This document shows, piece by piece, positions 18,495 to 45,995 of a stretch of DNA of 64,000 bases (position 1 is the stretch's first letter; each line of letters starts with the position of its first letter). This DNA comes from Castellaniella sp. MT123. Lineage in GTDB: Bacteria > Pseudomonadota > Gammaproteobacteria > Burkholderiales > Burkholderiaceae_B. Where the stretch lies: the NCBI RefSeq assembly GCF_039614765.1, contig NZ_CP154879.1, positions 682,001-746,000 on the forward strand, given 5' to 3'. The notes beneath the pieces are model-generated. The model made no database searches. It was given only the letters and a program-made list of their open reading frames with translations, and had not been told where the DNA came from. Position numbers and translations under genes: made by a program.

Positions 18495-18640
18495 AGCTAA
18501 TAAACAACTGACGCATGTATTGCATTGATATATGAAAGTTTAGCGAAGCGCTTATGTCGATCTGATGACACCAGCATGACAATGTCGTAATGTAATGGCG
18601 GTGCAGGCTTGGTTAGTAGGTCGTGGTCGTCAACGAGTCC
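18495..18640 (-). promoter_or_regulatory. Metal-responsive promoter module 1 (CusR-like box)
   Basis: The palindrome ATGACAATGTCGTAAT lies at 18576-18591. Read toward the minus-strand gene it is followed by N6, GTCATC (18569-18564), N3, the -35 TCGACA (18560-18555), 17 bases, and the -10 TTTCAT (18537-18532). The ~145-bp module is closely similar to the one at 27632-27780 and shares ~105 bp with 19991-20094. It drives the Met-rich/DUF302/SHOCT operon. Matches the E. coli CusR box ATGACAANNTTGTCAT with two changes. Confidence 0.8.
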
Positions 18641-18744
18641 CGCAGGATCTGCTCTGCCTGCCTGGATGTGTTCAAATGGCATCGTGGCCCTCGGGATCCT
18701 CCTCAAAACTCGCAGTGTGATGTGGAACGCGTGCGAGATATTCG

Positions 18745-18831
18745 TCATTGTCCGGTGTCCCAGCGCCGCTTGAAGAAGTTGTAGATCGGCACGTACACCA
18801 TCCCGGCATACGCCCCGTACAGGAAGCTCTC
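18745..18831 (-). pseudogene. Fragment of a small membrane protein gene
   Basis: Directly after the stop codon of the DUF2933 gene the same frame continues for 28 codons as ESFLYGAYAGMVYVPIYNFF and then KRRWDTGQ, ending in TGA. There is no start codon. It reads like the C-terminal end of a small inner-membrane protein, possibly of the DUF5676 type that often accompanies DUF2933 genes. The 5' part seems to have been lost in a deletion that fused its tail to the DUF2933 gene. Confidence 0.55.
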
Positions 18832-19044
18832 CTAATGAGGATGTGGTTCGCGGCTACCGCCCGTGGCGCTCGGCGGGTTCCCTACGGCCTTTGGGTCGGC
18901 GGTCCTGTTCGCGTCGCGATCTTCGCCAGAACCCGAGCCATGGCCTCCACCATGTCCTCCATGGCACCCGTGTCCGAACAAGTGCATGGCAATGAACGCC
19001 ACTCCAAACAGTACCCAGATCCAGTTCTCTGTTAGCCAAGCCAT
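18832..19044 (-). CDS. DUF2933-type small membrane protein
   Basis: 70 residues: one transmembrane helix (WIWVLFGVAFIAMHLFGHG) followed by a His/Gly stretch (GCHGGHGGGHGSG) and a hydrophilic tail. This WVLFGVAFIAMHLFGHG pattern is typical of DUF2933 proteins found beside copper and mercury genes. The histidines may bind metal. The tail after residue ~45 probably comes from fusion with the fragment at 18745-18831. Lies 87 bp downstream of the methyltransferase gene, in the same unit behind box 2. Confidence 0.75.
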   Translation of the reverse strand: MAWLTENWIWVLFGVAFIAMHLFGHGCHGGHGGGHGSGSGEDRDANRTADPKAVGNPPSATGGSREPHPH

Positions 19045-19131
19045 TTCCAGCTCCTTTCGTTGAGATCGTTCAGACGTCGACCTTTCGTTCTGGACAGCCG
19101 CGCAAGGCGGCGAGCGATTGGTCTTGGCATG

Positions 19132-19806
19132 TCAATGCCGCGGCAGTTCCTGCTCGCTGCCGCCCCTGGAGCGCTCGACCAGTCGCCGCCACTGGCCGAT
19201 TCGCGGAATGAACATCGGAACGCGTCGCCGATAGGCGCGATACTCATCGCCGAATTCCGCCAGCACGCGTTTCTCCTCATTTCGTGCAAGCAGCCAATAG
19301 ATCAGCACAATCACGGGAAATAGCGTCACCGAGAAGATCGTCGGCCAATGCACGACGCCCTCGCCAAAGAGGCCAATGAACAGGCCGGTGTACTGAGGGT
19401 GCCTGACCAGCGCATACAAGCCACCGGTGGCGAGACGCTTCTCCTTTTGCGCACGGTAGAGCTCGCGCCAGCCCTGGGCGAACAAACCAATGCCGACAAA
19501 CAGCAAGAGATAGCCGAGCAGCATCGAGATCATCATGCCCAGCTCACCCACGCCCAGCAGCGTGGACCAGAGACTGGCGCTCAGATTTGCACTGTCTAGC
19601 CCGAAGAACCGGACCATCAGATAGATGGTGAGCGGGAAGCCGTACATCTCGGCGTACAGTGCGATGATGAATGCCTGCACGAGTCCCGCGCTGGCCCATT
19701 CACGCCAGGTCTTCGGAGCCAGGTAGCGGTAGAAGAACCAGGACGCAATCACGATCATGATCGCTGCAATGCCCCAGACGCTTGAATGAGAGATCGATTC
19801 ATCCAT
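19132..19806 (-). CDS. Isoprenylcysteine methyltransferase-like membrane protein
   Basis: 224 residues with about six hydrophobic segments. The C-terminal half has the phospholipid methyltransferase/ICMT signature: GGLYALVRHPQYTGLFIGLFGEGV, then NEEKRVLAEFGDEYRAYRRRVPMFIP. Bacterial members methylate lipids or small molecules with SAM at the inner membrane; the substrate here is unknown. Such genes occur frequently in heavy-metal islands. It is the first gene behind metal box 2 (20072-20087). Confidence 0.82.
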   Translation of the reverse strand: MDESISHSSVWGIAAIMIVIASWFFYRYLAPKTWREWASAGLVQAFIIALYAEMYGFPLTIYLMVRFFGLDSANLSASLWSTLLGVGELGMMISMLLGYLLLFVGIGLFAQGWRELYRAQKEKRLATGGLYALVRHPQYTGLFIGLFGEGVVHWPTIFSVTLFPVIVLIYWLLARNEEKRVLAEFGDEYRAYRRRVPMFIPRIGQWRRLVERSRGGSEQELPRH

Positions 19807-19990
19807 GATGGATGTCCTTTTGAAGCGCTGTGAGGGATCGCCCTGTGTACGGTGCCAGACTCCGTTTGAAGCCGGATGTCCGAGTCTTGAGCGCGTACGA
19901 CGCCGAGGAGGGTAAAGCGATGGAAAGTGGTGGCTGGTGTTTCACGTGTGTGCATCCTGTGATCGGAACGAGCAAGATATCGAGGTCGGC

Positions 19991-20094
19991 CGCTTATACG
20001 CGACCCACGCAACTATTGCATTGATGTATAAGAGTTTAGTGAAGCGCTCATGTCGATCGGATGACGCTGCGATGACAACTTTGCAATGTTCACC
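19991..20094 (-). promoter_or_regulatory. Metal-responsive promoter module 2 (CusR-like box)
   Basis: The palindrome ATGACAACTTTGCAAT is at 20072-20087. Read leftward it is followed by N6, GTCATC (20065-20060), N3, the -35 TCGACA (20056-20051), 17 bases, and the -10 TCTTAT (20033-20028). It drives the methyltransferase-DUF2933 unit. The rest of the 305-bp gap between that gene and lgt holds no gene. Confidence 0.8.
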
Positions 20095-20111
20095 ACCTCA
20101 GACTGAGACAG

Positions 20112-20909
20112 TCACGGCGTCAGTGCCTGGGCCGATCGTCTTGCGGCCCACCAGTAAATAAAAATTCCGAAGAGAATCATGGGTAATGAAAGTAACTGGC
20201 CCATCGACAGGCCACCCGCGAATAAGCCGAGATAGTTATCCGGCTCGCGGGTGAACTCCACCATAAATCTAAAGACCCCGTAGCCCATCAAGAACACCGC
20301 ACTTGTTTGCCCGATCGGACGTGGCTTGCGTGCAAACCACCAGATAAGTGCAAACAGCGCAAAGCCTTCGAGTCCCATTTCATAGAGTTGCGATGGGTGG
20401 CGTGCGATGCCGTCCCCCGTTTGTGGAAACACCATGCCCCAAGGCACTGTGGTGGCGCGGCCCCATAGCTCGCCATTGATAAAGTTGCCCAGGCGCCCAG
20501 CAGCCAGGCCCAAAGGGATGAGTGGCGCGACAAAGTCGCCAATCTCCAGCAGTGTGCGACCGCGCTTGCGGGCAAAGATCAGCATGGCCACGATTACGCC
20601 CAGCAGACCACCGTGAAACGACATGCCGCCTTCCCATAGGTAGAGCGCCGAGAGCGGGTGGCTCAGGTACTCGCCCGGTTTGTAAAACAGTACATACCCC
20701 AGGCGCCCGCCAATCACCACGCCTAGCACGCTGTAAAAGATGATGTCCTCGAGATCGCGTAGGGTCAGGCCGCAGGGGTGATGCCGGATGCGCCAGCGGC
20801 CCAGCAGCCATGCCAGGGCAAAGCCGGTGAGATACATCAGGCCATACCAGTGGATGGCAAGTGGTCCGATTTGCAAGGCGATGGGGTCGATCTGGGGGTA
20901 TTGCAGCAT
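20112..20909 (-). CDS. lgt: Prolipoprotein diacylglyceryl transferase (accessory copy)
   Basis: 265 residues with seven membrane segments. Lgt landmarks are all present: [23 protein letters not shown], the catalytic-region [23 protein letters not shown] (the Lgt signature) and [11 protein letters not shown]. It transfers diacylglycerol from phosphatidylglycerol to the lipobox Cys of prolipoproteins. A core Lgt must exist elsewhere in the chromosome, so this is probably a second copy. It sits 60 bp after pta on the same strand, so it could be the last gene of the copA-DUF3141-ackA-pta unit. Accessory lgt genes are known from copper islands. Confidence 0.93.
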
Positions 20910-20969
20910 GGATGTGGCCCGATTAAAAGATTACCGTGGATTAGTCATGTTCCAACGTCTGGGCGTCCA

Positions 20970-22004
20970 TCAGCACACCTCCTTGGGGCAACAAGCCGAC
21001 TCGGGTTGCGGGGCACAGGGGAAGGCGGATTCCGTCTCCGGCACGATTGGGATCGGCAGCCGGATTCCCGCCCGGTACATCAGCGCCGCGACGCCCAGTC
21101 CCGCCAGGCGTGCCGCCGGCGGGTCGGCCCGAGAACTCAGCACTACCGGCACCGTCAGTCCCATGACCACCCCCGCTGCGGTGGCGCCACCGTGGTACTC
21201 CAGGTTTTTCGCCAGAATGTTGCCCGAGACCAGGTCCGGCATCAGCAGGATATCCGCTTGGCCTGCCACCGATGACTCGATCCCTTTTTCCCGGGCTGCA
21301 CGTTCGGAGATGGCGTTATCAAAGGCCAGTGGCCCGTCGACCTCGGCGCCAATGATTTGCCCGCGGCGGGCCATCAGCGTCAGGCAGGCCGCGTCCAGAG
21401 TGGAGGGGATGGCCGGGTTGACGGTCTCTACCGCCGAGATTACGGCCGCCCGGGGCACCTCGACGCCGATCATGTGCATCAGTGCGATGGCGTTCTGCAG
21501 AATCTGTGCCTTGGCGTTGAGGTCTGGCGTGATATTCACCGCTGCATCGCTGATGGCGAGCAACCGTGGGTAATTGGGTATATCTACCAGAAAGACGTGG
21601 CTGACGCGGCTGCCGGGCTGGCGCAGGCCGTGCTCGCTGTCGAGCAGGGCGCGCATGAAGGCATCGGTGTGGATGTGTCCCTTCATCAGCGCGTCGGCGC
21701 GACCGGCGCGCACGAGTTCCACCCCGCGGCGGGCGGCATCCGCCTCCGAGTCCGCTTCGATCACGGAGGCCAGGTCGAGCTCCCAGCCGAGCGTGGCTGC
21801 GACCTTGGCGATCTCGACGCAGCGACCGATCAGCACCGGTTCAGCGATTCCGAGTCGTACCGCATCGCGAAGTGTTTCCAGCACTGCAGCCTGTGCCGCG
21901 TTGACCACGGCGACCCGAATCGGGTCCCCGTGCCGTGCCTGCTGCACCAGGTCATCAAGCGTGGCCAATCGTTGGACGGCGTTATTGATCATGTTTCCTT
22001 TCAT
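20970..22004 (-). CDS. Phosphate acetyl/butyryltransferase (Pta/Ptb family)
   Basis: 344 residues: GRADALMKGHIHTDAFMRALLD, SHVFLVDIP, ITPDLNAKAQILQNAI and VSGNILAKNLEYHGGATAAGVVMGL..PVVLSSRAD mark the short, single-domain phosphotransacetylase family. It interconverts acyl-CoA plus phosphate with acyl-phosphate and CoA. Its ATG overlaps the ackA stop (ATGA), so the pair is translationally coupled. Cysteine-rich tail (CAPQPESACCPKEVC) is unusual for the family and could bind metal; a second start at 21992 is possible. Probably makes or consumes acetyl-phosphate together with AckA. Confidence 0.9.
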   Translation of the reverse strand: MKGNMINNAVQRLATLDDLVQQARHGDPIRVAVVNAAQAAVLETLRDAVRLGIAEPVLIGRCVEIAKVAATLGWELDLASVIEADSEADAARRGVELVRAGRADALMKGHIHTDAFMRALLDSEHGLRQPGSRVSHVFLVDIPNYPRLLAISDAAVNITPDLNAKAQILQNAIALMHMIGVEVPRAAVISAVETVNPAIPSTLDAACLTLMARRGQIIGAEVDGPLAFDNAISERAAREKGIESSVAGQADILLMPDLVSGNILAKNLEYHGGATAAGVVMGLTVPVVLSSRADPPAARLAGLGVAALMYRAGIRLPIPIVPETESAFPCAPQPESACCPKEVC

Positions 22005-23191
22005 TGGTTGGCATACAGGCGCTGCACGTGCCGCGCGATCATCCGTTCTTCATCGGTGGTCACGGCTTCCACCTGGACCAGGCCCTCGGCGGCGGAGATC
22101 AGCGGCTCGGGCTTGCGATTGCGCCCTGGGTCCAGTGTCACGCCCAGATACGCCAGGCCATCGCAGATCTGCGCGCGGATGTCCGGCGCGTTCGCGCCGA
22201 TGCCGCCGGTGAAGATCAGCCGGTCCAGCCCGCCGAGGGCGGCGCTCAGGGCGCCGATGAAGTGGCGCGCGCGATGACAAAAGAAGTCGATCGCCTGCGC
22301 GGCCTCTGGGGTGTCCTGACGGCGCGCCAGGAGCTCGCCCATATCGGCGCTCACGCCAGAGAGGCCCAGTAAGCCGCAGCGTTGGTAGAGCAATGACTGG
22401 AGAGCTTTAGGATCGAGTCCTTGCTGCCCGGCCAGATACAGCAGGATGCCGGGATCCAGATCGCCGCTGCGGGTACCCATAGGCATGCCGCCCAGAGCGC
22501 TGAAACCCATCGTCGTCTCGACGCTGCGCCCACCGCGGATCGCCGCCAAGGAGGCGCCGTTGCCCAGGTGCGCGACGATCAGGCGTTCGTCAAGTGCCGC
22601 TGGACCGTGGCGGCGCACCACATCCTCGACGATGAATTCGTAGGAGAGCCCGTGAAAGCCATAGCGACGCACGCCCTGGGCCTCGTACTCCCGAGGCAGT
22701 CCGGTATGCCGGGCGACCTCAGGCAGGCCGTGATGAAACGCCGTGTCGAAGCAGGCGAGCTGGGGTACGTTGGGAAAATGCGCGCGCATGGCGGCGATGC
22801 CGGCCAGGTTGTGCGGCAGATGCAGCGGAGCCAATGGAATCAGCGTGTCCAGACGACGCAGCAGTGTGTCGTCGATACGCTGCGAACAGTCACAGTCCGC
22901 CCCCCCGTGGACCACTCGGTGCCCGATGCCAACCAGATTCAGCCCTTCACCTTGCTGACGCAAGATCTCGTCGAGACGCGCAATGGCTGCCGCATGATCC
23001 GCGAATCGCACGTCGTTGTTCGCGAGGACTTGTTCCCGAGCGTCCACCACGCGGAACCGTCCCTGTTCAGTGCCGATGCCGCTGGCCTCCCCCCACAACT
23101 GACGATTGAGGCCATCGGCCAGGCCGAACACGGCGAATTTCAGGCTGGATGAGCCGCAGTTGACCACCAGGATGGATGGGCGCGTCGACAT
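22001..23191 (-). CDS. ackA: Acetate kinase
   Basis: 396 residues from the ATG at 23191; upstream in-frame codons overlap the DUF3141 gene and have no family similarity. Motifs: VNCGSSSLKFAVF at the N-terminus, HRVVHGG, ACFDTAFHHGLP, GVRRYGFHGLSYEF, AHLGNGASLAA, TMGFSALGGMPMGTRSGDLDPG and FTGGIGANAP. Converts acetyl-phosphate plus ADP to acetate plus ATP. Four bases follow the DUF3141 gene and four overlap pta, giving a tight DUF3141-ackA-pta block. Confidence 0.95.
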   Translation of the reverse strand: MSTRPSILVVNCGSSSLKFAVFGLADGLNRQLWGEASGIGTEQGRFRVVDAREQVLANNDVRFADHAAAIARLDEILRQQGEGLNLVGIGHRVVHGGADCDCSQRIDDTLLRRLDTLIPLAPLHLPHNLAGIAAMRAHFPNVPQLACFDTAFHHGLPEVARHTGLPREYEAQGVRRYGFHGLSYEFIVEDVVRRHGPAALDERLIVAHLGNGASLAAIRGGRSVETTMGFSALGGMPMGTRSGDLDPGILLYLAGQQGLDPKALQSLLYQRCGLLGLSGVSADMGELLARRQDTPEAAQAIDFFCHRARHFIGALSAALGGLDRLIFTGGIGANAPDIRAQICDGLAYLGVTLDPGRNRKPEPLISAAEGLVQVEAVTTDEERMIARHVQRLYANQ

Positions 23192-23195
23192 TTCC

Positions 23196-25022
23196 TTACA
23201 CTTCCTTATTGTGGGAATGGGGTGTCTCTGTCTCGCTCTTGTCGAGCCATGACCCGCCATAGAGCCCCTCGAACACCTTCTCGAAGACGCTGTCGCGAGT
23301 CGTGCCAACCTGCGTCAGTGTCGAGGCGATCGAGTCGCTCACCAATGTCTCCCATTGCCGGTAGGGGCTGCTGCTATCGACCGGCGTTGGTGTGGTCTCC
23401 ACCCTCTCGGCCAGCCACTTCACCCCGCCCATCCAGGGCGCGAAGCGTTCCGAGAACATCAGCCGGCTGGTCCGTGCCGGATGCAGCTGACGCAGCATTT
23501 TGGCCGACCAGGGGGTGGTGGCCAGCCGCACCCAGGGTCCGACGAAGGTCTCGTAGAGGGCCACGTTGTGCGCGGAGAGGGCTTTTACCTGCTTGAACGC
23601 CACCGTCTGGTCAGCGTAATCCAGGTCTTCCACTCGACGCTCCTCGAAACGCACCTGGAACTCGGGCTTGTGGCAGTCCGGGTCGCCAGTGGGATTGTCG
23701 ATCTTCATCTCGTAGAGCCCCGGGGCAAGCTCATTGAGGTCGCCGACACTCTCGAGGATCGCCCGGTGCTCCAATCGTGCGACCTTGGCGGACACGAAGA
23801 TTCCCAGATGGCCCACGTGTGGGTTGAGCAGATAGACGATGCGCTGATCGGCGGCCTTGAGCGCCTCGGTGCTCGGATACACCGCCGGGATCCAGTTGAG
23901 CGCCTGGTGCGGCGGGGTGATGTTGTCGCCGCTGGAGGCGAAGATCACCAGCGGGTTGCGGATGCGCTTGAGGTCGACGGTACAACCGGGGCAGATTTCA
24001 AACTCACCACGCTCGATCTGGTTACCGATGAAGAGATTCTCGACAATGGCAACGATCTCTTCCTTGCTCAGGCTATAGAAGCCGGTCCACCAGCGCTCAA
24101 AATCCAGAAAGCGCTCGCGCTGGCCATCGATGTCGGCAAATAACTGGTAATCCTTCTGCCACAAGGTATTTGCGGGCTTGAGGGATTCGAAGTTGGCCGC
24201 CAGATGGGCGCCGTCAAAACGCCCGTCCCCCAGGTCCGCCAGCAGGTGCGTCATCCAGGCGCCACCCAGCAGTCCGCCGGCCAGGCGCATGGGATTGACC
24301 CCGGATTCGCCAGACCAGTAAGACAGCGGTGAGCCGTTGAGTACCGCCGGTCCGACCAGACCTACGCAATCAGCCGAGAGCAGCGCAATGGCCCAGCCCG
24401 CCTGACAGTTGCCGTAGAGCACCGGTGGCTTGCCTGGATGCCGCTCGGCCAGCGTCTCGACGAAGCGTCGCAGGACATGCAGTACGTCTTCCAGCGTCTG
24501 CCCGGGCATGGGCTCCGGAAAGAAGATCACGAAGTAGACCGGGTGCCCCTCGTGCAGCGCCATGCCCACTTCGGAGTCTTGTTTGAAACCGCCGATGCCC
24601 GGGCCATGACCGGCGCGCGGGTCGACGATCATCACCGGCGGCTTGGTCTCGTCAAGGCAGTCTTCCAGACAGTCTTCGCCGACCCGGGTGATACGCAGCA
24701 AGGCATAGTTGGCGGGGCGCTCCAGTCGGCGGCCGTCCAGGATCATCTCGTAGTCGAAGTCGAGCAGTGGCGGCATGCCGGCCTGCTCATGCTCGAGCAT
24801 GTTGTCGGCACGCTGGCGCAGGGTGTCCATGTAGCGCACGCCGCGCCGCCAGAGGTCGGTCTGGTAGGCGAGTAGTTCCGCTGCGGGATTGCTTGGAATG
24901 GTGGTGTGTTCGAACGCACGGGCAGGCTTCTGGTCGGCCGCCGTCTGGGAGGAAGCGGGTTGACGCTCGCGAGGAGCTTTACGCACCGCAGGGGTTTTGA
25001 CTGTCGATAGTTTGGCATTCAT
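23196..25022 (-). CDS. DUF3141-family alpha/beta-hydrolase-like protein
   Basis: 608 residues, cytosolic. The first ~70 residues are variable and charged. The central part is an alpha/beta-hydrolase fold related to PHA synthases: VMIVDPRAGHGPGIGGF, PVYFVIFFPEPMPGQTLEDV, and the nucleophile-elbow-like GNCQAGWAIALLSAD, where Cys or Gln replaces Ser. Later NPLVIFASSGDNITPPHQALNWI and HVGHLGIFVS supply the Asp and His regions. DUF3141 genes recur beside ackA-pta. Function is unknown; a role in acyl-CoA or hydroxyalkanoate turnover is inferred from fold and neighbours. 50 bp behind copA. Confidence 0.85.
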   Translation of the reverse strand: MNAKLSTVKTPAVRKAPRERQPASSQTAADQKPARAFEHTTIPSNPAAELLAYQTDLWRRGVRYMDTLRQRADNMLEHEQAGMPPLLDFDYEMILDGRRLERPANYALLRITRVGEDCLEDCLDETKPPVMIVDPRAGHGPGIGGFKQDSEVGMALHEGHPVYFVIFFPEPMPGQTLEDVLHVLRRFVETLAERHPGKPPVLYGNCQAGWAIALLSADCVGLVGPAVLNGSPLSYWSGESGVNPMRLAGGLLGGAWMTHLLADLGDGRFDGAHLAANFESLKPANTLWQKDYQLFADIDGQRERFLDFERWWTGFYSLSKEEIVAIVENLFIGNQIERGEFEICPGCTVDLKRIRNPLVIFASSGDNITPPHQALNWIPAVYPSTEALKAADQRIVYLLNPHVGHLGIFVSAKVARLEHRAILESVGDLNELAPGLYEMKIDNPTGDPDCHKPEFQVRFEERRVEDLDYADQTVAFKQVKALSAHNVALYETFVGPWVRLATTPWSAKMLRQLHPARTSRLMFSERFAPWMGGVKWLAERVETTPTPVDSSSPYRQWETLVSDSIASTLTQVGTTRDSVFEKVFEGLYGGSWLDKSETETPHSHNKEV

Positions 25023-25072
25023 TGTGGCTTACCTCGCGGTGTGCAAATCTGATTTAATTAAGGTGGCCTGGA

Positions 25073-27505
25073 TCAAATCTTCTCGCGGCGCAGGCGCAGC
25101 GCATTCAAGACCACCGACAGCGAGGAGGCGGTCATCGCAAAGGCGGCAAACATGGGTCCGATCAGGATGCCGAAGAACGGGTAGAGGATCCCGGCGGCGA
25201 TCGGCACACCCGCGCCGTTATAGATCAGTGCAAAGAACAGGTTCTGCCTGATGTTGCGCATGGTGGCCAGCGCCAGCTTGCGGGCGCGCACGATGCCATC
25301 GAGATTGCCCTTGACCAGGGTGAAACCCGCGCTTTCGATCGCCACATCGGCGCCGGTGCCCATGGCGATGCCGACATCGGCCTGCGCCAGCGCGGGGGCA
25401 TCGTTGACCCCGTCGCCCGCCATCGCCACCCTGCGGCCTTTGGCCTGCAGCTCGCGGATGATGCGCGCCTTGTCCTCGGGCAGCACGTCGGCGCGGATTT
25501 CATCGATCCCCAGGCGCGCGGCTACCGCCTTCGCGGTGCGCTCGTTGTCGCCCGTGGCCATGATGATGTGAAAGCCCAGTTTGTGCAGTGCCTTGAGGGC
25601 ATCGGGCGTGGTGGCTTTCACCGGGTCGGCGACGCTGACCAGCCCTGCGATGGCGCCGTCGAGCACCACGAACATGACCGTCTCGCCCTCGTCGCGGCGA
25701 GCGTTGGCGACGGCGGCCAGTGGGCCGCCATCGAGGCCCAGCTCGGCCATCAGCCTGGCATTGCCGAGCGCCACCTGGTGGCCATCGACCACACCTTTGA
25801 CGCCCATGCCGGTCACCGCCTCGAAATCATCGGCCTTGCCCAATTCGACTCCGCGCTCCTCGGCGCCGGCGACGATGGCGTCGGCCAGCGGGTGCTCGGA
25901 TCCTATTTCCAGCGTCGCCGCCAGCCGCAGCACCTCGGTCTCGTCGTGCCCGGCTTCGGGCAGCACGGCGACGAGCTTGGGCTTGCCTTCGGTCAGGGTG
26001 CCGGTCTTGTCGACGATCAGCGTGTCGACCTTGGCGAAGCGCTCCAGCGCCTCGGCGTTCTTGATCAGCACCCCCAACTGCGCACCGCGCCCGGTGGCCG
26101 TCATGATCGACATCGGCGTGGCGAGCCCCAGCGCGCAGGGGCAGGCGATGATCAGCACCGCCACCGCCGAGACCAGCGCGTAGGCCAAGGCCGGCACCGG
26201 CCCCCAGATCGCCCAGGCGATGAAGGACAAGACCGCAACGCCAATGACCGCGGGGACGAACCAGCCCGCCACCTGGTCGGCGAATTTCTGGATGGGCGCG
26301 CGCGAGCGCTGGGCATTGGCCACCATCTCGACGATCTGGCTGAGCGTGGTATCGGCACCGACCCGGGTGGCTTCCATGATGAGGCTGCCGGTACCGTTGA
26401 TCGTGGCACCGGTGACCTTGTCGTCCTTGGTTTTTTCCACCGGAATTGGCTCACCGGAGATCATTGACTCGTCGATGGCAGAGCGGCCCTCGAGCACCAT
26501 GCCGTCCACCGGCACCTTGTCGCCGGGGCGCACCCGCAGGTGATCGCCCACCCGCACGGCTTCCAGGGGGATTTCTTCCTCGGTGCCGTCAGCGCGGATT
26601 ACCCGGGCGGTCTTGGCGGCCATGTCCAGCAGCGCGCGGATCGCCTTGCCGGTGCCTTCACGGGCACGCAGCTCCATGACTTGGCCAAGCAGCACCAGGG
26701 CAACGATGACTGCCGCGGCCTCGAAATAGATTCCGACCTGGCCGCTTACGGGGTCGCGAAAGCCTTCCGGGAAGATGCCCGGCACCAGCACCGCGACGAT
26801 CGAGAAGAGATAGGCCGCGGCGACCCCCATGCCGATCAGGCTGAACATGTTGAGGTTCATGGTGCGAAACGAATTCCAGCCGCGCACGAAAAATGGCCAG
26901 CCCGACCACAGGATCACCGGGGTGCTGAACACGAGCTCGATCCACATCGAGGTTCGTTCACCGAAGAAGTCGCGAATCGCCGTGAGGCCCAGATAAGGAG
27001 CCATCGCCAGCACTAGCACCGGGATCGTGAGGACGGCCGCGACCCAGAAGCGGCGGGTGAAATCCACCAGTTCGGGATTGGGCCCCTCGTCGCCGGCCGC
27101 GGCGGATTCCAGCTCCAGGCCCATGCCACACAGGGGACAGGCGCCGTGCGTGGTCTGCCGCACCTCGGGGTGCATCGGGCAGGTGTAGACCGCACCGACA
27201 TAGCCGGCGGGCACCTGGTCGTACTGGCCGCCGCGAACCGGCGCAGCGGTTTCATGGCCGGCTTGATGGGCGTGCCCGTGCCCGTGACCATGGCCATGAC
27301 CCTTGTCATGGCGGGACTGCGCCTGTGGCTCGCCGCTTTGCACGGGCACCAGGTGCATGCCGCACTTCGGACAGTCACCGGGCTGATCGGAGATCACCTC
27401 GGGGTGCATCGGGCAGGTGTATTGGGTAGAGGTGGTGTATTGGGCAGCCCCTTGTTTACCGTGCTGCGCGTGTTCGGGTCGTTTTATGGGCTGCTGCTGA
27501 GTCAT
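25073..27505 (-). CDS. copA: Copper/silver-translocating P1B-type ATPase
   Basis: 810 residues from the ATG at 27505 (GGAG seven bases upstream); the longer frame adds only non-coding leader. Instead of CxxC domains the N-terminus has two YTCPMHPEV heavy-metal-binding domains (Cys31 and Cys109) separated by a His-rich linker ([14 protein letters not shown]). The pump core is complete: TGE loop region ([10 protein letters not shown]), CPC in [25 protein letters not shown] and [19 protein letters not shown] marks a Cu+/Ag+ exporter. First gene behind metal box 3. Confidence 0.95.
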
Positions 27506-27631
27506 GGAGTCGTCTCCGTTACTGTGGGTAAGGCGGTGGCACGTACGGTCCTGTTTCGCGTAACCAATATTGCGTTGCCGTCTACACAAAAATCGTTGAT
27601 GCATAAGATCACGCTGGCGCCTGGCATTGGG

Positions 27632-27780
27632 CGCTAATAAGCAACCCACGCAGCTATTGCATTGATATATAAGAGTCTAGCGAGGTGTTCATGTCAATCA
27701 GATGACACCATCATGACAATTCTGTAATGTCATGGTGGCGCAAGCTTGGTTGGTGCATCGTGACCGGTGACCGTCAGTGA
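27632..27780 (-). promoter_or_regulatory. Metal-responsive promoter module 3 (CusR-like box)
   Basis: The palindrome ATGACAATTCTGTAAT is at 27713-27728. Read leftward come N6, GTCATC (27706-27701), N3, the -35 TTGACA (27697-27692), 17 bases and the -10 TCTTAT (27674-27669). The promoter lies ~165 bp before copA and should drive copA-DUF3141-ackA-pta and perhaps lgt. It fills most of the 343-bp gap between copA and the TPM gene; the rest shows nothing. Confidence 0.82.
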
Positions 27781-27848
27781 GCCGAGACCCCATGATTTGA
27801 TGACTCGTCTGGGCTGCCTTTGCGATTGATGCTCTTGCCCTGGCCGTG

Positions 27849-28349: not shown

Positions 28350-28351
28350 GG

Positions 28352-29209: not shown

Positions 29210-29838
29210 CGCACCGCCCCGGACGTTGCCGGTATCGCACCGCCGACCGGTTTCTCAAAGCTGACGTTGGGTGGCTTTGCTATTTCCTTCTCGTTTTCGA
29301 CAGTGAAGTTGGGCTTTTCCTTGTAGCCAAACAACATTGCAGTCAGATTGGAAGGAAAGGTTCGTACCGTCACGTTGTAGTCTTGCACGGACTTGATATA
29401 ACGGTTGCGCGCTACGGTGATGCGGTTCTCGGTGCCTTCCAACTGTGCCGACAGGTCGCGGAATCCCTGGTTGCTCCGCAGGGCCGGGTAGTTCTCGGAG
29501 ACAGCCATGAGCCGCGACAAGGCGCCCGTCAGCTGGCCTTGCGCCTGCTGGAATTTCTGGAACGCTTCGGGGTTGTTGAGCAGCTCGGCAGTCGCCTGAA
29601 TCGAGGTGGCCCTTGAGCGTGCCTCGATCACTTGCGTCAATGTGCTCTGTTCGAAATTTGCCTCGCCCTTGACCGTGTTCACCAGGTTGGGGATCAGGTC
29701 CGCGCGGCGCTGATACTGATTGACCACTTCTGACCAACTCGCCTTGACTTGCTCGTCTGAACTCTGGAATGTGTTGTAGCCGCAGCCGGCCAGGCTCAGA
29801 GCCAGTATCGCCGCAAAAATGGCCTTCAGTATCCGCAT
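29206..29838 (-). CDS. LemA family protein
   Basis: 210 residues: lipoprotein-type N-terminus with the lipobox LSLAGCGYN, then the LemA helical domain (VKASWSEVVNQYQRRADLIPNLVNTVKG, AEFEQSTL-like FEQSTLTQVIEARSRATS, YPALRSNQGFRDLSAQLEGTENRITVARNRYI, YNVTVRTFPSNLTAMLFGYK). Widespread, function uncertain; usually encoded with TPM proteins. Being a lipoprotein it is a possible substrate of the accessory Lgt. 36 bp after the yncE-like gene. Confidence 0.9.
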   Translation of the reverse strand: MRILKAIFAAILALSLAGCGYNTFQSSDEQVKASWSEVVNQYQRRADLIPNLVNTVKGEANFEQSTLTQVIEARSRATSIQATAELLNNPEAFQKFQQAQGQLTGALSRLMAVSENYPALRSNQGFRDLSAQLEGTENRITVARNRYIKSVQDYNVTVRTFPSNLTAMLFGYKEKPNFTVENEKEIAKPPNVSFEKPVGGAIPATSGAVR

Positions 29839-29874
29839 GTTCGGGTCTCCATGTGAGAGAGCTGGGAATGGGGC

Positions 29875-30942
29875 TTACGGGATGGACCGATAGGTAATGC
29901 CGTTGGGATTGGGCCCCACCCGGTATGTGGCGACAACCTCCTGTGTGCTGGTGTCTATCGCGCTGACCGTGTCGTCCTGATTGTTTGTGACAAAGACAAA
30001 GCCCCCCTCACTGCTGGCGACAACCCCATGGGCGCCCATGCCCGTGGTCACCGTGGCTTGAACGCTTTGGCTTTTCACATCAATGACAGAGACCGTGTTG
30101 TCGGGCTCGCTCTCGCTGCCCTGATTGGCGACGTAAACCTTGCTGCCATCCGCGGTTGTGTATAGCTGGATGGGATTGCGGCCAACCTTTATGCGATTGA
30201 GCACCTGTCTGGTGACGGTGTCGATGATCGCCACACTATTTTCATCCCGCAGCGATACATAGACCTGTGCTCCATCAGGCGTAAAGGCAACTTGAACCGG
30301 GGCCTTGCCAACAGGGATGCGTGCGGATTCTTTGAGATTTTGGGTATTTATGACGGATACGTTGTTATCGGTGACGTTGGCGACATACAGTTCTTGCCCA
30401 TTGGGGCTCAGACGCAAGCCGTGAGGAAACGCTCCGGTGGGAATCTCGGCGATGATTTTCTTGTGCTGAATGTCAACGACCGAGACCTGATTGGCCTCGG
30501 AGTTGGTGATATAGGCACGATCACCCTTTTCGCTTGTCACAACATGGGCAGGGTGACCGCCTGAAGGCAGCGTCGCCAATGTCTTGTCGATCTGGCCGGC
30601 ATCGATCAATAGTAATTTGGCGTCGTTACCATCTTCAGAACTGGCGTGCGTATCGGTCTTCTCACCAGCTTGGTCATTGCCCATACCGTGCCCGGCCATA
30701 CCGGTCATCGCCGGCATGCCAACGGCAAGAACCGTCTTTCCATCAGGGGAGATCTGGACATTATGCGGGATGACGGATACCTTCGCCGTGTGTACGGCGC
30801 CGGTACGCAAGGTGATCTCGCTCACGGAGCCGTCGCCTTCATTGGCGCTGTACACAACGCCGTTCGGTAGCGTTGCCGCCTGGACCGCCCCGGCAGCCAG
30901 CGTGAGGGCAATCGAAGCAAGAAGAGGGTGTATTTGAAGCAT
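29875..30942 (-). CDS. YncE-like periplasmic beta-propeller protein
   Basis: 355 residues with signal peptide (cleavage after LAAGAVQA). At least six 40-residue YVTN-type repeats are visible, e.g. VSVVDIQHKKIIAEIPTGAFPHGLRLSPNGQELYVAN and VSVINTQNLKESARIPVGKAPVQVAFTPDGAQVYVS. A His/Met-containing insert (MTGMAGHGMGNDQAGEKTDTH) in an early blade could bind copper. Such propellers bind partner proteins or metals in the periplasm. First gene after metal box 4. Confidence 0.85.
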   Translation of the reverse strand: MLQIHPLLASIALTLAAGAVQAATLPNGVVYSANEGDGSVSEITLRTGAVHTAKVSVIPHNVQISPDGKTVLAVGMPAMTGMAGHGMGNDQAGEKTDTHASSEDGNDAKLLLIDAGQIDKTLATLPSGGHPAHVVTSEKGDRAYITNSEANQVSVVDIQHKKIIAEIPTGAFPHGLRLSPNGQELYVANVTDNNVSVINTQNLKESARIPVGKAPVQVAFTPDGAQVYVSLRDENSVAIIDTVTRQVLNRIKVGRNPIQLYTTADGSKVYVANQGSESEPDNTVSVIDVKSQSVQATVTTGMGAHGVVASSEGGFVFVTNNQDDTVSAIDTSTQEVVATYRVGPNPNGITYRSIP

Positions 30943-31045
30943 TGTCGGATCTCCGGTTCGAAACGGTTGTAACCATTGAAAGTCATGTCATTGAAAGCAG
31001 CAGTGCTGCCCATCGATCACTGTATCGATCCATCCCTGACGGATT

Positions 31046-31073
31046 GATGACGCGCTAATTACAATCTTGTAAT
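31046..31073 (-). promoter_or_regulatory. Metal-responsive box 4 upstream of the yncE-like gene
   Basis: A perfect palindrome ATTACAATCTTGTAAT at 31058-31073 (only the centre deviates), followed leftward by N6 and GTCATC (31051-31046). The -35 at the same offset is CCGTCA (31042-31037); the -10 at 17 bases (TGATCG) is weak. It should serve yncE-lemA-TPM-TPM. Confidence 0.78.
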
Positions 31074-31180
31074 GTGGCGCGATTCACGTGTTTTATCGAC
31101 ATGCGAGGCGTCCCGGCGCCGGGCAGACTGCCCGATGCGCAAGGGTTACGGCACAATGCGACGGTTCTGGAAGAACCCAA

Positions 31181-33136
31181 TCAAAGCGGGATGGCCGAGT
31201 CCAGCGACTTCAGGAATTGTTTTGGCGATTGGAAGCCGATGACTTGAAAGTCGATTTCTTTGCCTTTCCTGTCAAAGAAAAGGATCCCGGGAGGCCCAAA
31301 AAGTGCAAAACGCTTGAGTAGCGCTTGATCATCCGCATTGTTTGCCGTCACGTCAGCTTGCAGCAGGATGACGTCCTTCAAGCGCCCCCGGACTCGCGGG
31401 TCGGTAAAGGTGAAACGATCCATTTCCTTACACGATATACACCATTCCGCCCAAAAATCGAGCATCACGTAACGGCCGTCTGCCGCCTGCAATTGTGACT
31501 CCAGGTCAGCCAGATTCTTGATGGGCCTGAATGTAATCTCGGTTGCAGCGCTGCCTGCTGGCGTGGTGGTGTTTACGCTCCTGAGGGCAGCCAAGGGCTG
31601 CAGCACATCTCGGCTGCCCGAAAGGCCGCCGATGAGTAGCGCGAGGCCGAGTGTCAAGGCAATGATCCCAATACCTTTTCCGAAACGCATATATCCTGCC
31701 GAGCTCGCAGGCAAGGGGTCCAAGGCCCTGAGATACATCGCCGATATGATGAGCAGAATGGCCCATAAGAACAGATGCACCACGGCGGGGATGACTGGGG
31801 AGACGAGGTAAATGGCCACGGCCAGCAGGGTCACGCCAAAGAAATGCTGGACGGATTTCATCCAGGGGCCGGCTTTTGGCAGCAAGGCGCCGGCGCTTGT
31901 GCCAAAGATCAGGAGTGGCACGCCCATGCCGATGGCGAGCGAGAAAAGCGCCATGCCGCCGACCACGGCGTCACCCGTTTGCCCAATGTACAGTAGCGCA
32001 CCTGCCAGGGGCGCAGCCACGCACGGCCCCACGATCACGGCAGACAGCACGCCCATCAGAAAGACGCCAAACAGCCTGCCGCCTGGTGTGCGGTTGGCTG
32101 CGCGCGTCAGGCGGCTTTGAATCGCAGCGGGCATCTGCAACTGGTAAAAACCGAACATGGATAACGCAAGCAATACAAAGACTGTCGCGAAGCCGCCCAG
32201 GACCCACGGGTTTTGCAGATAGGCCGATAGCATCGTACCGGCAAGTCCAGCCGCAATGCCCGCCAGCGTATAGGTCATTGCCATGGCGAGCACATAGACC
32301 AATGAGAGGCCAAAGGCCTGGCGTCGCGTGGCGTGGTGGCCCTGTCCGACGATAATCCCCGACAGAATCGGGATCATGGGAAGCATGCACGGGGTGAACG
32401 CCAGGATCAGGCCAAAACCAAAGAATGCGGTAACCAGTGCCCACGCATTGCCTTGTGCGAACAAATTACCGATTACGCTGGTCTCTGATAGGCTGGTGTT
32501 GGATCGCGGTTCACGGATATCGGTCGCAGCGGCTGGCGCCGTGGGAGCCGTGCGAGTAGAAGCAACGGAGGCATTGGCCTGGGCCAGTGGCACCGTGAGC
32601 GTCTTCTCGATGGGCGGATAACAAACACCTGAGGGATCATTGCAACCCTGATAGGATGCGAACAAGGTCAGGGATTGCCGGGCCGCACTGTCAGCCGGCC
32701 GGTCCAGGGCAATGACGGCTTCTACGGGCTCGTAATAGACCTCTTCTTCCCCGAAGGTTGGGTCGTCTTTGAGCTTGCCGGAGGGTAACGATGTGCTGGC
32801 AATCGTGATGTCCGGAGAATCCGGCAGGCTGAACGCAATCCGGCTACGGTACAAATAATAGCCCTTGGCGGGGGTCAGTGTGGCGACAAGCGTGTTGAAA
32901 TCCCGCGCCACGACCGAAATCTGAAATGCCTTCTCGGGTGGCAACAGCCCTGGCTCGGAGGACGACCCATCAAAAAGACCGGTTATCGATTTGAAAAGAC
33001 CTTTTGAAGGGGTGAAGACCTGTGTTTGCGTACTACTAGAGCCAGGCGAAGCGTCACGGGGTGGTTCGTGGCTGGCGCCGTATGCCCACGATGAGACCAG
33101 CAAGAGTAGGGTGGCAATCAATCGTGTCACGTTCAC
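31181..33136 (-). CDS. dsbD: Thiol:disulfide interchange protein DsbD
   Basis: 651 residues with signal peptide. N-terminal alpha domain with the Cys pair in YQGCNDPSGVCYPPIEK; a membrane core of eight helices with the paired cysteines in FTPCMLPMIPIL and VGPCVAAPLAGALLY; and a C-terminal thioredoxin domain with WAEWCISCKEMDRFT. It carries electrons from cytosolic thioredoxin to periplasmic substrates, useful where copper miscatalyses disulfides. Starts 33 bp after the BNR gene and is probably co-transcribed from box 5. Likely a second DsbD besides a core copy. Confidence 0.93.
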   Translation of the reverse strand: MNVTRLIATLLLLVSSWAYGASHEPPRDASPGSSSTQTQVFTPSKGLFKSITGLFDGSSSEPGLLPPEKAFQISVVARDFNTLVATLTPAKGYYLYRSRIAFSLPDSPDITIASTSLPSGKLKDDPTFGEEEVYYEPVEAVIALDRPADSAARQSLTLFASYQGCNDPSGVCYPPIEKTLTVPLAQANASVASTRTAPTAPAAATDIREPRSNTSLSETSVIGNLFAQGNAWALVTAFFGFGLILAFTPCMLPMIPILSGIIVGQGHHATRRQAFGLSLVYVLAMAMTYTLAGIAAGLAGTMLSAYLQNPWVLGGFATVFVLLALSMFGFYQLQMPAAIQSRLTRAANRTPGGRLFGVFLMGVLSAVIVGPCVAAPLAGALLYIGQTGDAVVGGMALFSLAIGMGVPLLIFGTSAGALLPKAGPWMKSVQHFFGVTLLAVAIYLVSPVIPAVVHLFLWAILLIISAMYLRALDPLPASSAGYMRFGKGIGIIALTLGLALLIGGLSGSRDVLQPLAALRSVNTTTPAGSAATEITFRPIKNLADLESQLQAADGRYVMLDFWAEWCISCKEMDRFTFTDPRVRGRLKDVILLQADVTANNADDQALLKRFALFGPPGILFFDRKGKEIDFQVIGFQSPKQFLKSLDSAIPL

Positions 33137-33169
33137 AGCAAGCGTCCATCATTCAAAGCATTCTGCGTC

Positions 33170-34144
33170 TTACTTATCAAGCGTCGTGCCATATTTCGCA
33201 ATCTGCGTCCAGGTCGCACCACGATCTTGAGTGACATAGGCATTACGTTTGAAGGTGGCGATCGCGAGATCGTCGTGGCGGGCAGGGTTCTGGGCAATGA
33301 ACGCCACGGCGTCTTCGTCCAGTGCGGGAAGCTTGATCTTTTCATTGGCCTCACCGTCCTTCAGGCTCATGCGAGTCAGCATGGGGGAATTCGCATAACT
33401 GCTGACCCAAAGGTGCTCTCCATCCAGATCGAACCACTGCGCGAGCACCTGAGTGTTCCCGACCCGCGGTTCAAAATGGTTGCCTGCATCGCGCGACAGG
33501 TACAAGCCGTCGGCAGCGCCCACGGCCACGATATTGGCATCATTGGGGTGCACCGCCAGGCTGTTGATTTTAGTTTTCAGGCCATCGGCGGCTGCCTGCG
33601 TCCAGATCAGACCGTCTGTCCGGGTCATATACAGGCCAGGCTGGCGCATCCGGGTGTTGGGACGATAATTCAGAACATAAACCGCATTGGTTTCGTAGCT
33701 GGTGGCCAAGGTGTGGAAATCGGACTCGCCTTCCAGGCTCAGTTGCTGCCAGGTTTTACCCGCATCGGTGCTTTTGATGAGACCGAACGGGTTCACCAGA
33801 TTCGAGCCAGCCGCGGGATGGCCGCTGCTGTAAAGCGCGTCACGGGTGGCCGCGAACCCCATGTAATCATGCTCGGGCCCGGGCATTTTTGCCCATCGTC
33901 CTTCCGCATACGCCGCAATGCCGTAATGGCTCGGGATGAACAGCTGTTGACCGTCCGCACTATAGGCAAGCCCGTGCACGTGCGCGAGTTCAACCGGCGC
34001 TGTCTGGGCCGAAACCTTTGTACTTTGCGCATCGGCCGTGGCTGGCTGCGTGCCGGCGACTGCGACGCCAGATCCGCCCAATGTCAATAGTGTGGCGAAG
34101 CTTGTTGCCGCCAGAGCGGTAAAAATTGTTTTAGAACGCATCAC
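33170..34144 (-). CDS. Secreted BNR-repeat (F510_1955-type) propeller protein
   Basis: 324 residues with signal peptide (ending SGVAVAG). Sialidase/BNR-like repeats with Asp boxes are visible: STDAGKTWQQL, SRDAGNHFEP and TQDRGATWTQI. This resembles Ycf48/photosystem-stability-like propellers labelled F510_1955 glycosylhydrolases, which lack sialidase catalytic residues. N-terminal LAHVHGLAYSADGQQLFIPSHYGIAAY is typical. A periplasmic binding or assembly role is inferred. First gene after metal box 5. Confidence 0.8.
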   Translation of the reverse strand: MMRSKTIFTALAATSFATLLTLGGSGVAVAGTQPATADAQSTKVSAQTAPVELAHVHGLAYSADGQQLFIPSHYGIAAYAEGRWAKMPGPEHDYMGFAATRDALYSSGHPAAGSNLVNPFGLIKSTDAGKTWQQLSLEGESDFHTLATSYETNAVYVLNYRPNTRMRQPGLYMTRTDGLIWTQAAADGLKTKINSLAVHPNDANIVAVGAADGLYLSRDAGNHFEPRVGNTQVLAQWFDLDGEHLWVSSYANSPMLTRMSLKDGEANEKIKLPALDEDAVAFIAQNPARHDDLAIATFKRNAYVTQDRGATWTQIAKYGTTLDK

Positions 34145-34259
34145 GTGATATCCGTTAGTCCGAAATATTCTTCCATGAGTTTGTCATGGGTCCAGATTGC
34201 CGAGGTCACCATGAATGGGCGACAAGCAGGACATTTTATCGTTCCCTTGCTTGCAATCG

Positions 34260-34287
34260 GATGACGCCTTCATTACAACTTTGTCAT
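34260..34287 (-). promoter_or_regulatory. Metal-responsive box 5 upstream of the BNR gene
   Basis: ATTACAACTTTGTCAT at 34272-34287, followed leftward by N6 and GTCATC (34265-34260); the -35 at the common offset is TTGCAA (34256-34251). No good -10 is found at 17 bases; TAAAAT (34237-34232) lies closer. It serves the BNR-dsbD unit. Confidence 0.78.
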
Positions 34288-34374
34288 GTGAGGGCATACA
34301 CATACGCATACGGTACGTAGGGGCATACGGCGTGCGCGTGCCCTGCCTTGAACTCCCGGTTTGGGGGCAATGCT

Positions 34375-34782
34375 TTACGAATACCACCGCAGGAAGGCGG
34401 CCGCAGTCAGTGCGACGATAGCCAGCACGGCCAGGGTTTGCCAGACCATCGTGGCGCGTCGGCCCGTGTACAGGTCACGCGCGCGCAGCGATACGGCAAT
34501 AAGCACAAACGCGGTGATGGCGCACACGATCTTGACGGTCAGCGCCACGATGGCAATGCCGTGAATGTCGGGCAGCTGGCGGTAGAAGTAGAGACTCACC
34601 AGCCCAAACAAGGTGCCGCTGGCGATTTGTACTGCCCACCCCGACAAGGTCAGCCACAGTACGCCGCGCTCACGTGCAGGCTGGCCGGTGATCAGGCGAT
34701 AGAGCGGCGCAGCCACCACGACCACTGCGCCAAAGTTGTGGCCAACCTGGGTCAGCGCGTAGACAAGGTTTTGCCAGTTCAA
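34375..34782 (-). CDS. Small integral membrane protein of the cupin operon
   Basis: 135 residues if read from the TTG at 34782, five bases after the upstream stop; a TTG at 34812 would instead overlap that gene. No in-frame ATG gives a full first helix. Four hydrophobic segments (FGAVVVVAAPLYRLI, WLTLSGWAVQIASGTLFGLVSLYFY, AIVALTVKIVCAITAFVLIAV, TLAVLAIVALTAAAFL). It resembles the CopD/DUF2269-type four-helix membrane folds only loosely, so no function is given. Third gene of a cupin-secreted protein-membrane protein unit. Confidence 0.65.
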   Translation of the reverse strand: MNWQNLVYALTQVGHNFGAVVVVAAPLYRLITGQPARERGVLWLTLSGWAVQIASGTLFGLVSLYFYRQLPDIHGIAIVALTVKIVCAITAFVLIAVSLRARDLYTGRRATMVWQTLAVLAIVALTAAAFLRWYS

Positions 34783-34787
34783 AGCAC

Positions 34788-35147
34788 TTATCCGACCTGA
34801 ATGCTGACGCAATCCTCGGCGCCGGTAGCGACGTGAGCCCGGTTGGCCACCTGGATGCAGATGGCGTGCTTTCCTGGTGACAGGTCCATACCGTCGAGCG
34901 TGAAACTGCCCTTGAGCTGGCGTGTTTGTCCCACCAGTTCACCGTCCACGTAGACGTGCAGATGGTCCACTTGGGGGCCAGGCGCAGCGCTAAAGACGAG
35001 TTCGTCCGGATTTTTAACCTTGAGTGTCACACCATCCTTCAGCGAAGCGGCCGAGACAGCCCCTTCAGCGCCCAGGCTGGGGGCCGCCAGCAGTGCCGAT
35101 CCCGAGACCAGAGCGGCAAACAATGCTATTACGCGAAAAGATATCAT
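34788..35147 (-). CDS. Secreted small beta-sandwich protein (DUF6130/DUF4399-like)
   Basis: 119 residues with a signal peptide (MISFRVIALFAALVSGSALLA). The mature part VTLKVKNPDELVFSAAPGPQVDHLHVYVDGELVGQTRQLKGSFTLDGMDLSPGKHAICIQVANRAHV reads as an immunoglobulin-like beta-sandwich with a DHLHVY metal-ligand-like motif. Similar small periplasmic proteins are labelled DUF4399 or DUF6130; I cannot decide between them. It starts 17 bp after the cupin gene. Confidence 0.6.
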   Translation of the reverse strand: MISFRVIALFAALVSGSALLAAPSLGAEGAVSAASLKDGVTLKVKNPDELVFSAAPGPQVDHLHVYVDGELVGQTRQLKGSFTLDGMDLSPGKHAICIQVANRAHVATGAEDCVSIQVG

Positions 35148-35164
35148 GCGGATTCCAACATTCC

Positions 35165-35602
35165 TTATTGACCCTTGGGCGTATCCCAGATGACGAAGTC
35201 ATGGTCATTGCTGTCGGCAACGAAGATGGCCAACAGCTTTGCAGGTTCGGTGTCGCTCGCGTTTTCACTGACAACGTGGTGATCACCCGGCTTTTCGGTC
35301 CAGCTCTCGCCCGCGTGAAAGACCATCTCCTGGCCGTCGTTGACCTTGCTGCGAATGGCACCGGACAGGACGTAGGCGAGAATGAATGCAGCGCCGTGGC
35401 GGTGTGGTGGAGATTTTACCCCCGGTGCGTAGTCCACTATGACTCCGGTCAGTGATTTGCCCGGAGCGTTTGCGATGGGCTGCTGGAACGCTTGTGTGAT
35501 GGCCTGGCCCTGCTGAGCAGGCTCGGCCGCCAGGACTGCAGGGCTTGCACTGGCTAGAAAAGCGGCTGCTGAGATTGCCAAGCTTAAAATTCGTATCCTC
35601 AT
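35165..35602 (-). CDS. Secreted cupin-domain protein
   Basis: 145 residues with signal peptide (to VLAAEP). One cupin barrel: GVIVDYAPGVKSPPHRHGAAFILAYVLSGAIRSKVNDGQEMVFHAGESWTEKPGDHHVVSENASDTEPAKLLAIF, with the metal-binding HRH..E and H of the two cupin motifs. Substrate unknown. It is divergent from the response regulator gene, and box 6 lies between them; its palindrome could act in both directions, although the accessory half-site points to the regulator. Confidence 0.85.
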   Translation of the reverse strand: MRIRILSLAISAAAFLASASPAVLAAEPAQQGQAITQAFQQPIANAPGKSLTGVIVDYAPGVKSPPHRHGAAFILAYVLSGAIRSKVNDGQEMVFHAGESWTEKPGDHHVVSENASDTEPAKLLAIFVADSNDHDFVIWDTPKGQ

Positions 35603-35673
35603 TTTCCTTACCTCTTGCTCCTGGCTTCACGTGCTCCGAGCTTGAGGATAGGCGTTTTTTATTGAAAAGGCAC

Positions 35674-35733
35674 ATTACAATTTTGTAATCCGTCTGTCAT
35701 CCTGCTGTCAGTCGCAGGTCAGTAGAGTGTTAT
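35674..35733 (+). promoter_or_regulatory. Metal-responsive box 6 and promoter of the two-component system
   Basis: The perfect palindrome ATTACAATTTTGTAAT (35674-35689; ends are exact reverse complements) is followed rightward by N6, GTCATC (35696-35701), N3, the -35 CTGTCA (35705-35710), 17 bases and the -10 TGTTAT (35728-35733). It is the only one of the six boxes pointing right, toward the regulator's own gene, and implies autoregulation. Confidence 0.82.
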
Positions 35734-45865: not shown

Positions 45866-45995
45866 GGGGTGCTCCGGGAAATGGGGGGAGTGGTAAAAGA
45901 TCAGCCAGCAGGCGCGAAAGGCGCGCCAGTGCTGGCTGTTGGGGGGAAGGGCGGGGGGATTACACAGGGTTTTCCACAGGAAATGTGGATTAACA

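Follow-up and report, generated by a model that had tools for sequence, protein, structure and literature searches.

What do six palindromic boxes in the copper region of Castellaniella sp. MT123 control, and how much of their regulator's binding site do they represent? The window, i.e. the whole 64-kb stretch analysed from the 3.37-Mb single-contig genome of this strain, contains six 16-bp boxes and the genes of a CusR-like response regulator and a CusS-like sensor kinase. The elements built around the boxes are with good probability class II activator-dependent promoters of a CusRS-type copper/silver system, with an operator of four half-sites in a fixed register. The CusR box is likely only half of the regulator's landing site. 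The sequence itself shows the component parts and how they are spaced, the absence of a -35, the bidirectional boxes, the conservation across genomes and the link to the regulator.

The boxes are located at 18576, 20072, 27713, 31058, 34272 and 35674, as reported in an initial annotation of the window. Three are exact fits to ATKACAANNTTGTMAT and three have one mismatch. The expected number is 0.20 (at up to two mismatches), and six boxes were reached in none of 100 shuffles. All belong to the CusR/AgrR type ATKACAnnnnTGTMAT; compared with the longer 7-2-7 form, three are exact and three differ at one position, each time in the promoter-distal inverted arm. In the direction of the gene, 6 bp separate the box from GTCATC at all six sites, and the extra direct repeat with 11-bp period described earlier (GTCAT at +6) is present in 6/6. 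A further half-site, G(A/T)CA(G/T), occurs 11 bp after GTCAT, inside the hexamer earlier taken as the -35. TANNNT starts exactly 33 bp past the box in every case (TAAACT, TAAACT, TAGACT, TACAGT, TAAAAT and TAGAGT). The full element is ATKACAA-NN-TTGTMAT-N6-GTCAT-N6-GWCAG-N11-TANNNT, a rigid 55-letter design common to the six promoters. It combines an inverted half-site with three tandem ones that repeat every 11 bp, and it has no usable -35. Half-sites 2 and 3 match perfectly throughout; half-site 4 has one mismatch (GACAT) in sites 18576, 20072 and 27713. Compared with the complete element the six sites score 0, 0, 2, 2, 2 and 2 mismatches of 27; in five block-shuffled windows it was unmatched below 9 mismatches of 27. 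Promoters 18576, 20072 and 27713 are mutual copies (70–75% identity outside the motif), and all other pairs of window sites are 19–42% identical there. The six sites described initially are all present; because of the copies they amount to about four independent cases.

Sites 1 to 5 are on the minus strand. In site 1 the box, comprising the inverted arm and the first tandem half-site, occupies 18576–18591 (one mismatch, distal arm), half-site 3 (GTCAT) 18565–18569, half-site 4 (GACAT) 18554–18558 and the -10 (TAAACT) 18537–18542. Site 2 has its box at 20072–20087 (one mismatch, distal arm), GTCAT at 20061–20065, GACAT at 20050–20054 and TAAACT at 20033–20038. Site 3 is arranged likewise, with the box at 27713–27728 (one mismatch, distal arm), GTCAT at 27702–27706, GACAT at 27691–27695 and TAGACT at 27674–27679. 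The box of site 4 is exact (31058–31073) and is followed by GTCAT (31047–31051), GTCAG (31036–31040) and TACAGT (31019–31024). Site 5 also has an exact box (34272–34287), with GTCAT at 34261–34265, GCAAG (two mismatches) at 34250–34254 and TAAAAT at 34233–34238. Site 6 is on the plus strand; its exact box at 35674–35689 precedes GTCAT (35696–35700), GTCAG (35707–35711) and TAGAGT (35723–35728).

The response regulator (35816–36502, plus strand, 228 aa) passes the CusR/SilR/CopR heavy-metal profile TIGR01387 (340.2, cut-off 279.2) and is below the cut-off of the CusR equivalog PRK09836 (359.8 vs 420). With this cut-off missed, at 69% identity to E. coli CusR, it is filed as CusR-like and not as an equivalog of the E. 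coli protein. The kinase (36506–37903, plus strand, 465 aa) passes the Cu(+)/Ag(+) sensor kinase model PRK09835 (493.7, cut-off 423) and contains the CusS sensor domain PF21085 (E 9.5e-54). Among the named loci fetched, the closest regulators are those of Pollutimonas and Eoetvoesiella, 89–91% identical. A second CusR-like regulator is encoded at genome positions C1:309800–310381 (L133:7786–8670, minus strand). It is 86% identical over residues 30–223, with no alignment before residue 30; a PPK2 gene lies directly against its 5' end, a CusS-like kinase gene is next and an RND pump gene is further downstream. In the 16 kb around this second gene no copper element was found at up to 8 mismatches.

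The same arrangement is found in other genomes, in a sample of 80 loci around CusR-like regulators. Distinct boxes with at most one mismatch number 66 in 44 of the 80 loci; 36 loci are without a counted box, the count leaving out boxes closer than 60–76 bp to a locus end and those with repeated surroundings (96 bp). GTCAT (up to one mismatch) is present on at least one side of 57 of these boxes, TANNNT at 33 in 58, and both on one side in 52. Over the 132 box sides GTCAT is found at offset 6 exactly in 49 and within one mismatch in 85. At each of the other offsets between 0 and 34 its exact form is found at most twice; if one mismatch is allowed, the second-highest count is 19, at offset 17 (the place of the fourth half-site), followed by 6. 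TANNNT is at offset 33 in 77 sides and in 0 to 7 at other offsets between 20 and 51. The parts go together: the 82 sides with a -10 at 32–34 have GTCAT in 73 and GWCAG in 63 (up to one mismatch), the 50 sides without it in 12 and 4, respectively. The complete element (up to 6 mismatches of 27, repeated elements dropped) is represented by 148 distinct copies in 74 of the 80 loci; the reversed-pattern control gives 0. The tandem part with the -10 has 111 hits at up to three mismatches, and the left arm is within three mismatches in all of them and within one in 99. Genes downstream of 135 elements code for 51 response regulators (a number due largely to the choice of loci by their regulator), 39 multicopper oxidases, 7 outer-membrane efflux proteins, 6 DUF2933 proteins and 3 heavy-metal ATPases; two of 137 elements are without a downstream frame.

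It is unlikely that the regulator binds the 16-bp palindrome only, as a symmetric dimer, and that GTCAT and GWCAG are read by RNA polymerase, the latter within a TTGACA-like -35. CTGACA/TTGACA at offset 15–20 is indeed the best -35-like match among offsets 5–19 (mean 3.56 of 6). Against this, such a -35 would stand only 12 bp from the conserved -10, a spacer too short for GWCAG to work as a -35, and the candidate was rejected together with the "-35 hexamer" of the initial annotation, which holds the fourth half-site. The -10 placed 17 bases further on in that annotation, said to be good in four cases, was also discarded: the window hexamers there are poor (TTTCAT, TCTTAT, TCTTAT, TGATCG, TGTCCT and TGTTAT), and TANNNT at this position (offset 38) is rare, 4 of the 132 sides vs 77 at offset 33. 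An extended -10 was rejected as well (TG in 4 of 48 dereplicated sides). Furthermore, GTCAT is mostly upstream of the place for a -35 and does not look like one, and AgrR activation is largely impaired by mutation of the promoter-proximal repeat (PMC7380067). At normal -35 spacing the match to TTGACA is 1.44–1.75 of 6, the level of chance. Judged by sequence, the promoters have the features of OmpR-family class II promoters: an operator over the -35 region, a good -10 and no -35.

The dependence on the regulator was followed in genomes taken irrespective of it. In 299 genomes of the phylum, neighbours disregarded, exact boxes outside MT123 number 29 in 28 genomes vs 22 in 19 genomes for the reversed pattern; the bare box is therefore barely above chance. 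A CusR-like regulator (at least 60% identity, sought only within 1.5 kb on each side) accompanies five of the 29 boxes, and four of these five have GTCAT and the -10 on the same side. None of the 24 boxes lacking such a neighbour within 1.5 kb has the combination; GTCAT alone (up to one mismatch) occurs in three of them and TANNNT alone in one (L155). The 24 include L155, with a 45% identical regulator nearby, and L152, with a 33% identical one.

A blind query consisting of the tandem part and the -10, without left arm or regulator, matched 30 of 369 genomes of the class (MT123 included; reversed-pattern control 0), with 47 sites in 29 other genomes. At the 40 of these sites examined the left arm is perfect in 33 and has up to two mismatches in 39; one has four. 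A regulator (at least 55% identity over at least 100 aa) is present within 1.5 kb in 24 of the 29 loci. These counts of arm and regulator thus show the four half-sites and the -10 moving together as a single unit. A scan of 200 genomes at up to three mismatches gave 20 weaker matches outside MT123, reversed control 0. The element also gives a search rule by which promoter sequence alone leads to CusR-type loci, with reversed controls of 0 in 200 and 369 genomes. The lone examined site without a good inverted arm (L191:1501, minus strand; 4 of 7 mismatches), with no regulator within 1.5 kb, is possibly a tandem-only variant or a chance match.

These counts also bear on half-sites 3 and 4 as a PhoB-type box, by which the copper genes would be co-regulated by phosphate via a second regulator. 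The E. coli PHO box, with core CTGTCAT in 11-nt repeats bound by PhoB, is close to the tandem part (PMC4415409). Nevertheless, 39 of the 40 examined blind sites join the tandem part to the CusR left arm, 24 of the 29 loci also have a CusR-like regulator, and 40 of 97 boxes carry the tandem part on both sides (elements with up to five mismatches, repeated ones dropped), which makes such co-regulation very improbable. That the conservation merely reflects descent, copies of one promoter having spread with copper islands and being uninformative on binding, is hardly credible: copper islands do move and three of the six window promoters are copies, yet the other window pairs share little outside the motif, and of 48 promoter sides dereplicated to below 60% identity in non-motif columns, 43 retain GTCAT and 34 GWCAG (up to one mismatch).

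The four-half-site operator would comprise an inverted ATKACAA, then tandem TTGTMAT, nnGTCAT and nTGWCAG at 11-bp steps, ending 11 bp upstream of the -10. The CusS-like kinase would sense copper and then activate the regulator. The activated regulator may occupy the four half-sites together, most likely in the form of two dimers. The upstream palindrome would anchor the assembly; the promoter-proximal pair, flanking the usual place of sigma70 region 4, would contact sigma70 and recruit polymerase in the manner of PhoB or PhoP. A box with the element on both sides would fire both ways. Transcription is predicted to start about 6–7 bp downstream of TANNNT.

Several observations weigh against this reading. 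Half-site 4 is weak at 34272 and is the weaker part elsewhere, being within one mismatch in only the 34 of 48 dereplicated sides given above. Six of the 80 regulator loci are without the element at up to 6 mismatches. E. coli hiuH is a poor match (6 mismatches), the box and the -10 position being kept and the half-sites poor. The copA2-copR2 region of pMOL30, an AgrR target, has no match at up to 8 mismatches. AgrR's own box is centred at -43.5 (PMC7380067), vs about -53 predicted from the element. Unphosphorylated AgrR is active, and the phosphorylation step may therefore differ. In Pseudomonas putida, where the comparison is arithmetic on published coordinates only, the copR2 footprint (-73 to -35) overlaps the prediction only partly, and the copR1 and copA2 footprints, about 100 bp or more upstream of the starts, do not fit (PMC12428095).

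The reach of the regulon was determined in the MT123 genome. The 16-6-5 motif (up to three mismatches) gives 10 strand hits at eight boxes, the reversed control 1; the genome scan proposed as a test in the initial annotation thus brought up no crowd of matches before unrelated genes. Six boxes are in the window and two are about 127–130 kb beyond the last window box. The latter, at 844868 and 847832, adjoin a DUF411 gene, a second copper ATPase gene and genes of a cupredoxin and a cytochrome c. At box 847832 both sides carry the element, with 0 and 1 mismatch; they face the cupredoxin and ATPase genes, which diverge from each other. Box 844868 has it on the DUF411 side; on the PEP-mutase side ATCAT and an exact GTCAG are in place without a -10 (4 mismatches), perhaps a decayed second promoter. 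Genome-wide, the tandem part with the -10 alone (up to one mismatch) picks out only seven of the eight boxes, with eight promoter directions in all (control 0); site 34272 is missed because of its weak half-site 4. A ninth box (1484285, one mismatch) was rejected as a site, having neither half-site nor -10.

The genes controlled are assigned by position. Site 1 is followed by the gene of a 166-aa protein without Pfam or NCBIfam match (17946–18446) and that of a 157-aa protein without NCBIfam match (17462–17935), site 2 by an ICMT/PEMT-like methyltransferase gene (19132–19806) and site 3 by a copper P-type ATPase gene (25073–27649). The first gene after site 4 codes for a beta-propeller protein (29875–30942), with LemA and two TPM-domain frames after it. 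The first gene after site 5 codes for an F510_1955-type BNR protein (33170–34144); a DsbD-like protein gene follows (31181–33136). All these first genes, and the second gene after site 1, are on the minus strand. The regulon is taken to extend beyond the island and would include the system itself, two copper ATPase operons, the cupredoxin/cytochrome operon, the DUF411 gene and several envelope operons. The single island-wide regulon of the initial annotation holds as a CusR-type regulon; it does not cover the genes at 34.3–35.6 kb, which no element faces on the box sides checked, and it is not confined to the island. A cupin gene (35165–35602) and small frames (34348–35602) adjoin the boxes there. 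The facing box sides are without half-sites and -10, and these genes therefore look to be outside the regulon.

Genes for DUF3141, acetate kinase, phosphotransacetylase and prolipoprotein diacylglyceryl transferase (LGT) follow the copper ATPase gene on the same strand (20112–27649), an odd mix for a copper operon. A TrwC-type relaxase/helicase gene at 42956–46027 suggests a mobile element beside the copper region.

A wider proposal, for which the chances are put slightly below even, is that the textbook CusR box is half of an operator and that CusR-type regulators of Beta- and Gammaproteobacteria form an obligatory four-protomer assembly at a fixed distance from the -10. If true, head-to-head and head-to-tail modes of DNA binding in the OmpR family would be joined in a single complex, and reported copper promoters without a recognisable -35 would be explained. 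Many regulators of the OmpR family bind direct repeats, yet for CusR/CopR a palindromic box is described; a fixed four-half-site operator would reconcile both, with a testable stoichiometry.

The nearest described relative is AgrR of Cupriavidus metallidurans (PMC7380067). Its box has the same consensus as that of MT123 (ATKACANNNNTGTMAT); the promoter-proximal repeat is needed for full activation, and the promoters have a poor -35 and follow the class II mode. In AgrR the extra direct repeat is imperfect, in phase, upstream and/or downstream of the box, and present at some operators only, whereas in MT123 its place is fixed at +6, that of the fourth half-site at +17 and that of the -10 at +33. 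In P. putida CopR1/CopR2 recognize the inverted motif TGACA-N4-TGTCA; their extended footprints contain several TGACA-like half-sites, and the cop promoters are reported to have "no typical -10/-35 boxes" (PMC12428095). The present element may bear on that report, though only copA1 fits its geometry well: counted anew from the published start, the copA1 footprint spans -69 to -23, in agreement with the predicted -61 to -24. Neither a fixed register nor a -10 distance is stated in the accessible CopR text.

For E. coli CusR/HprR the box is ATGACAANNTTGTCAT, and the published description, as far as accessible, gives only the inverted repeat. The K-12 cusC promoter reads ATGACAATTTTGTCAT, 6 bp, GTCAC (+6), 6 bp, ATCAG (+17), 11 bp and TAAAGT (+33), with two mismatches to the element; the cusR side of the same box is without it. 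Plasmid silE also has the element with two mismatches. HprR binds the spacer next to hiuH (PMC8249747). The view in the initial annotation that the extra half-site does not belong to the simple CusR box is out of date, the half-site having been published for AgrR (PMC7380067), several TGACA half-sites having been described in CopR footprints (PMC12428095) and GTCAC being present at the corresponding place of cusC.

Among other response regulators, PhoP architecture I boxes are about 12 nt upstream of the -10 in class II promoters (PMC3335776), and their direct-repeat half-sites take the place of the -35, as in MT123. Unlike in MT123, no obligatory upstream inverted half-site is described for PhoP or PhoB in the parts of the sources available (PMC3335776, PMC4415409). 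ArcA uses 3 to 5 direct repeats at most sites, and ComA, cited as another response regulator, an inverted repeat plus a half-site (PMC3798270). Both resemble MT123 in having more than two half-sites, mostly at 11-bp steps, and ComA also in mixing an inverted repeat with an extra half-site; ArcA differs in its direct-repeat arrays of variable number. The extra half-site is not new in kind (AgrR, PMC7380067; P. putida CopR, PMC12428095). The fixed +6/+17 register, the constant -10 distance and the breadth across genera are not described in the open-licence AgrR and CopR text, figures aside. What appears new is the fourth half-site, the fixed -10 distance and this breadth, i.e. a refined operator anatomy for a known kind of regulator. 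The promoter design is judged to be real, widely conserved and partly published, and is extended here to a rigid four-half-site form.

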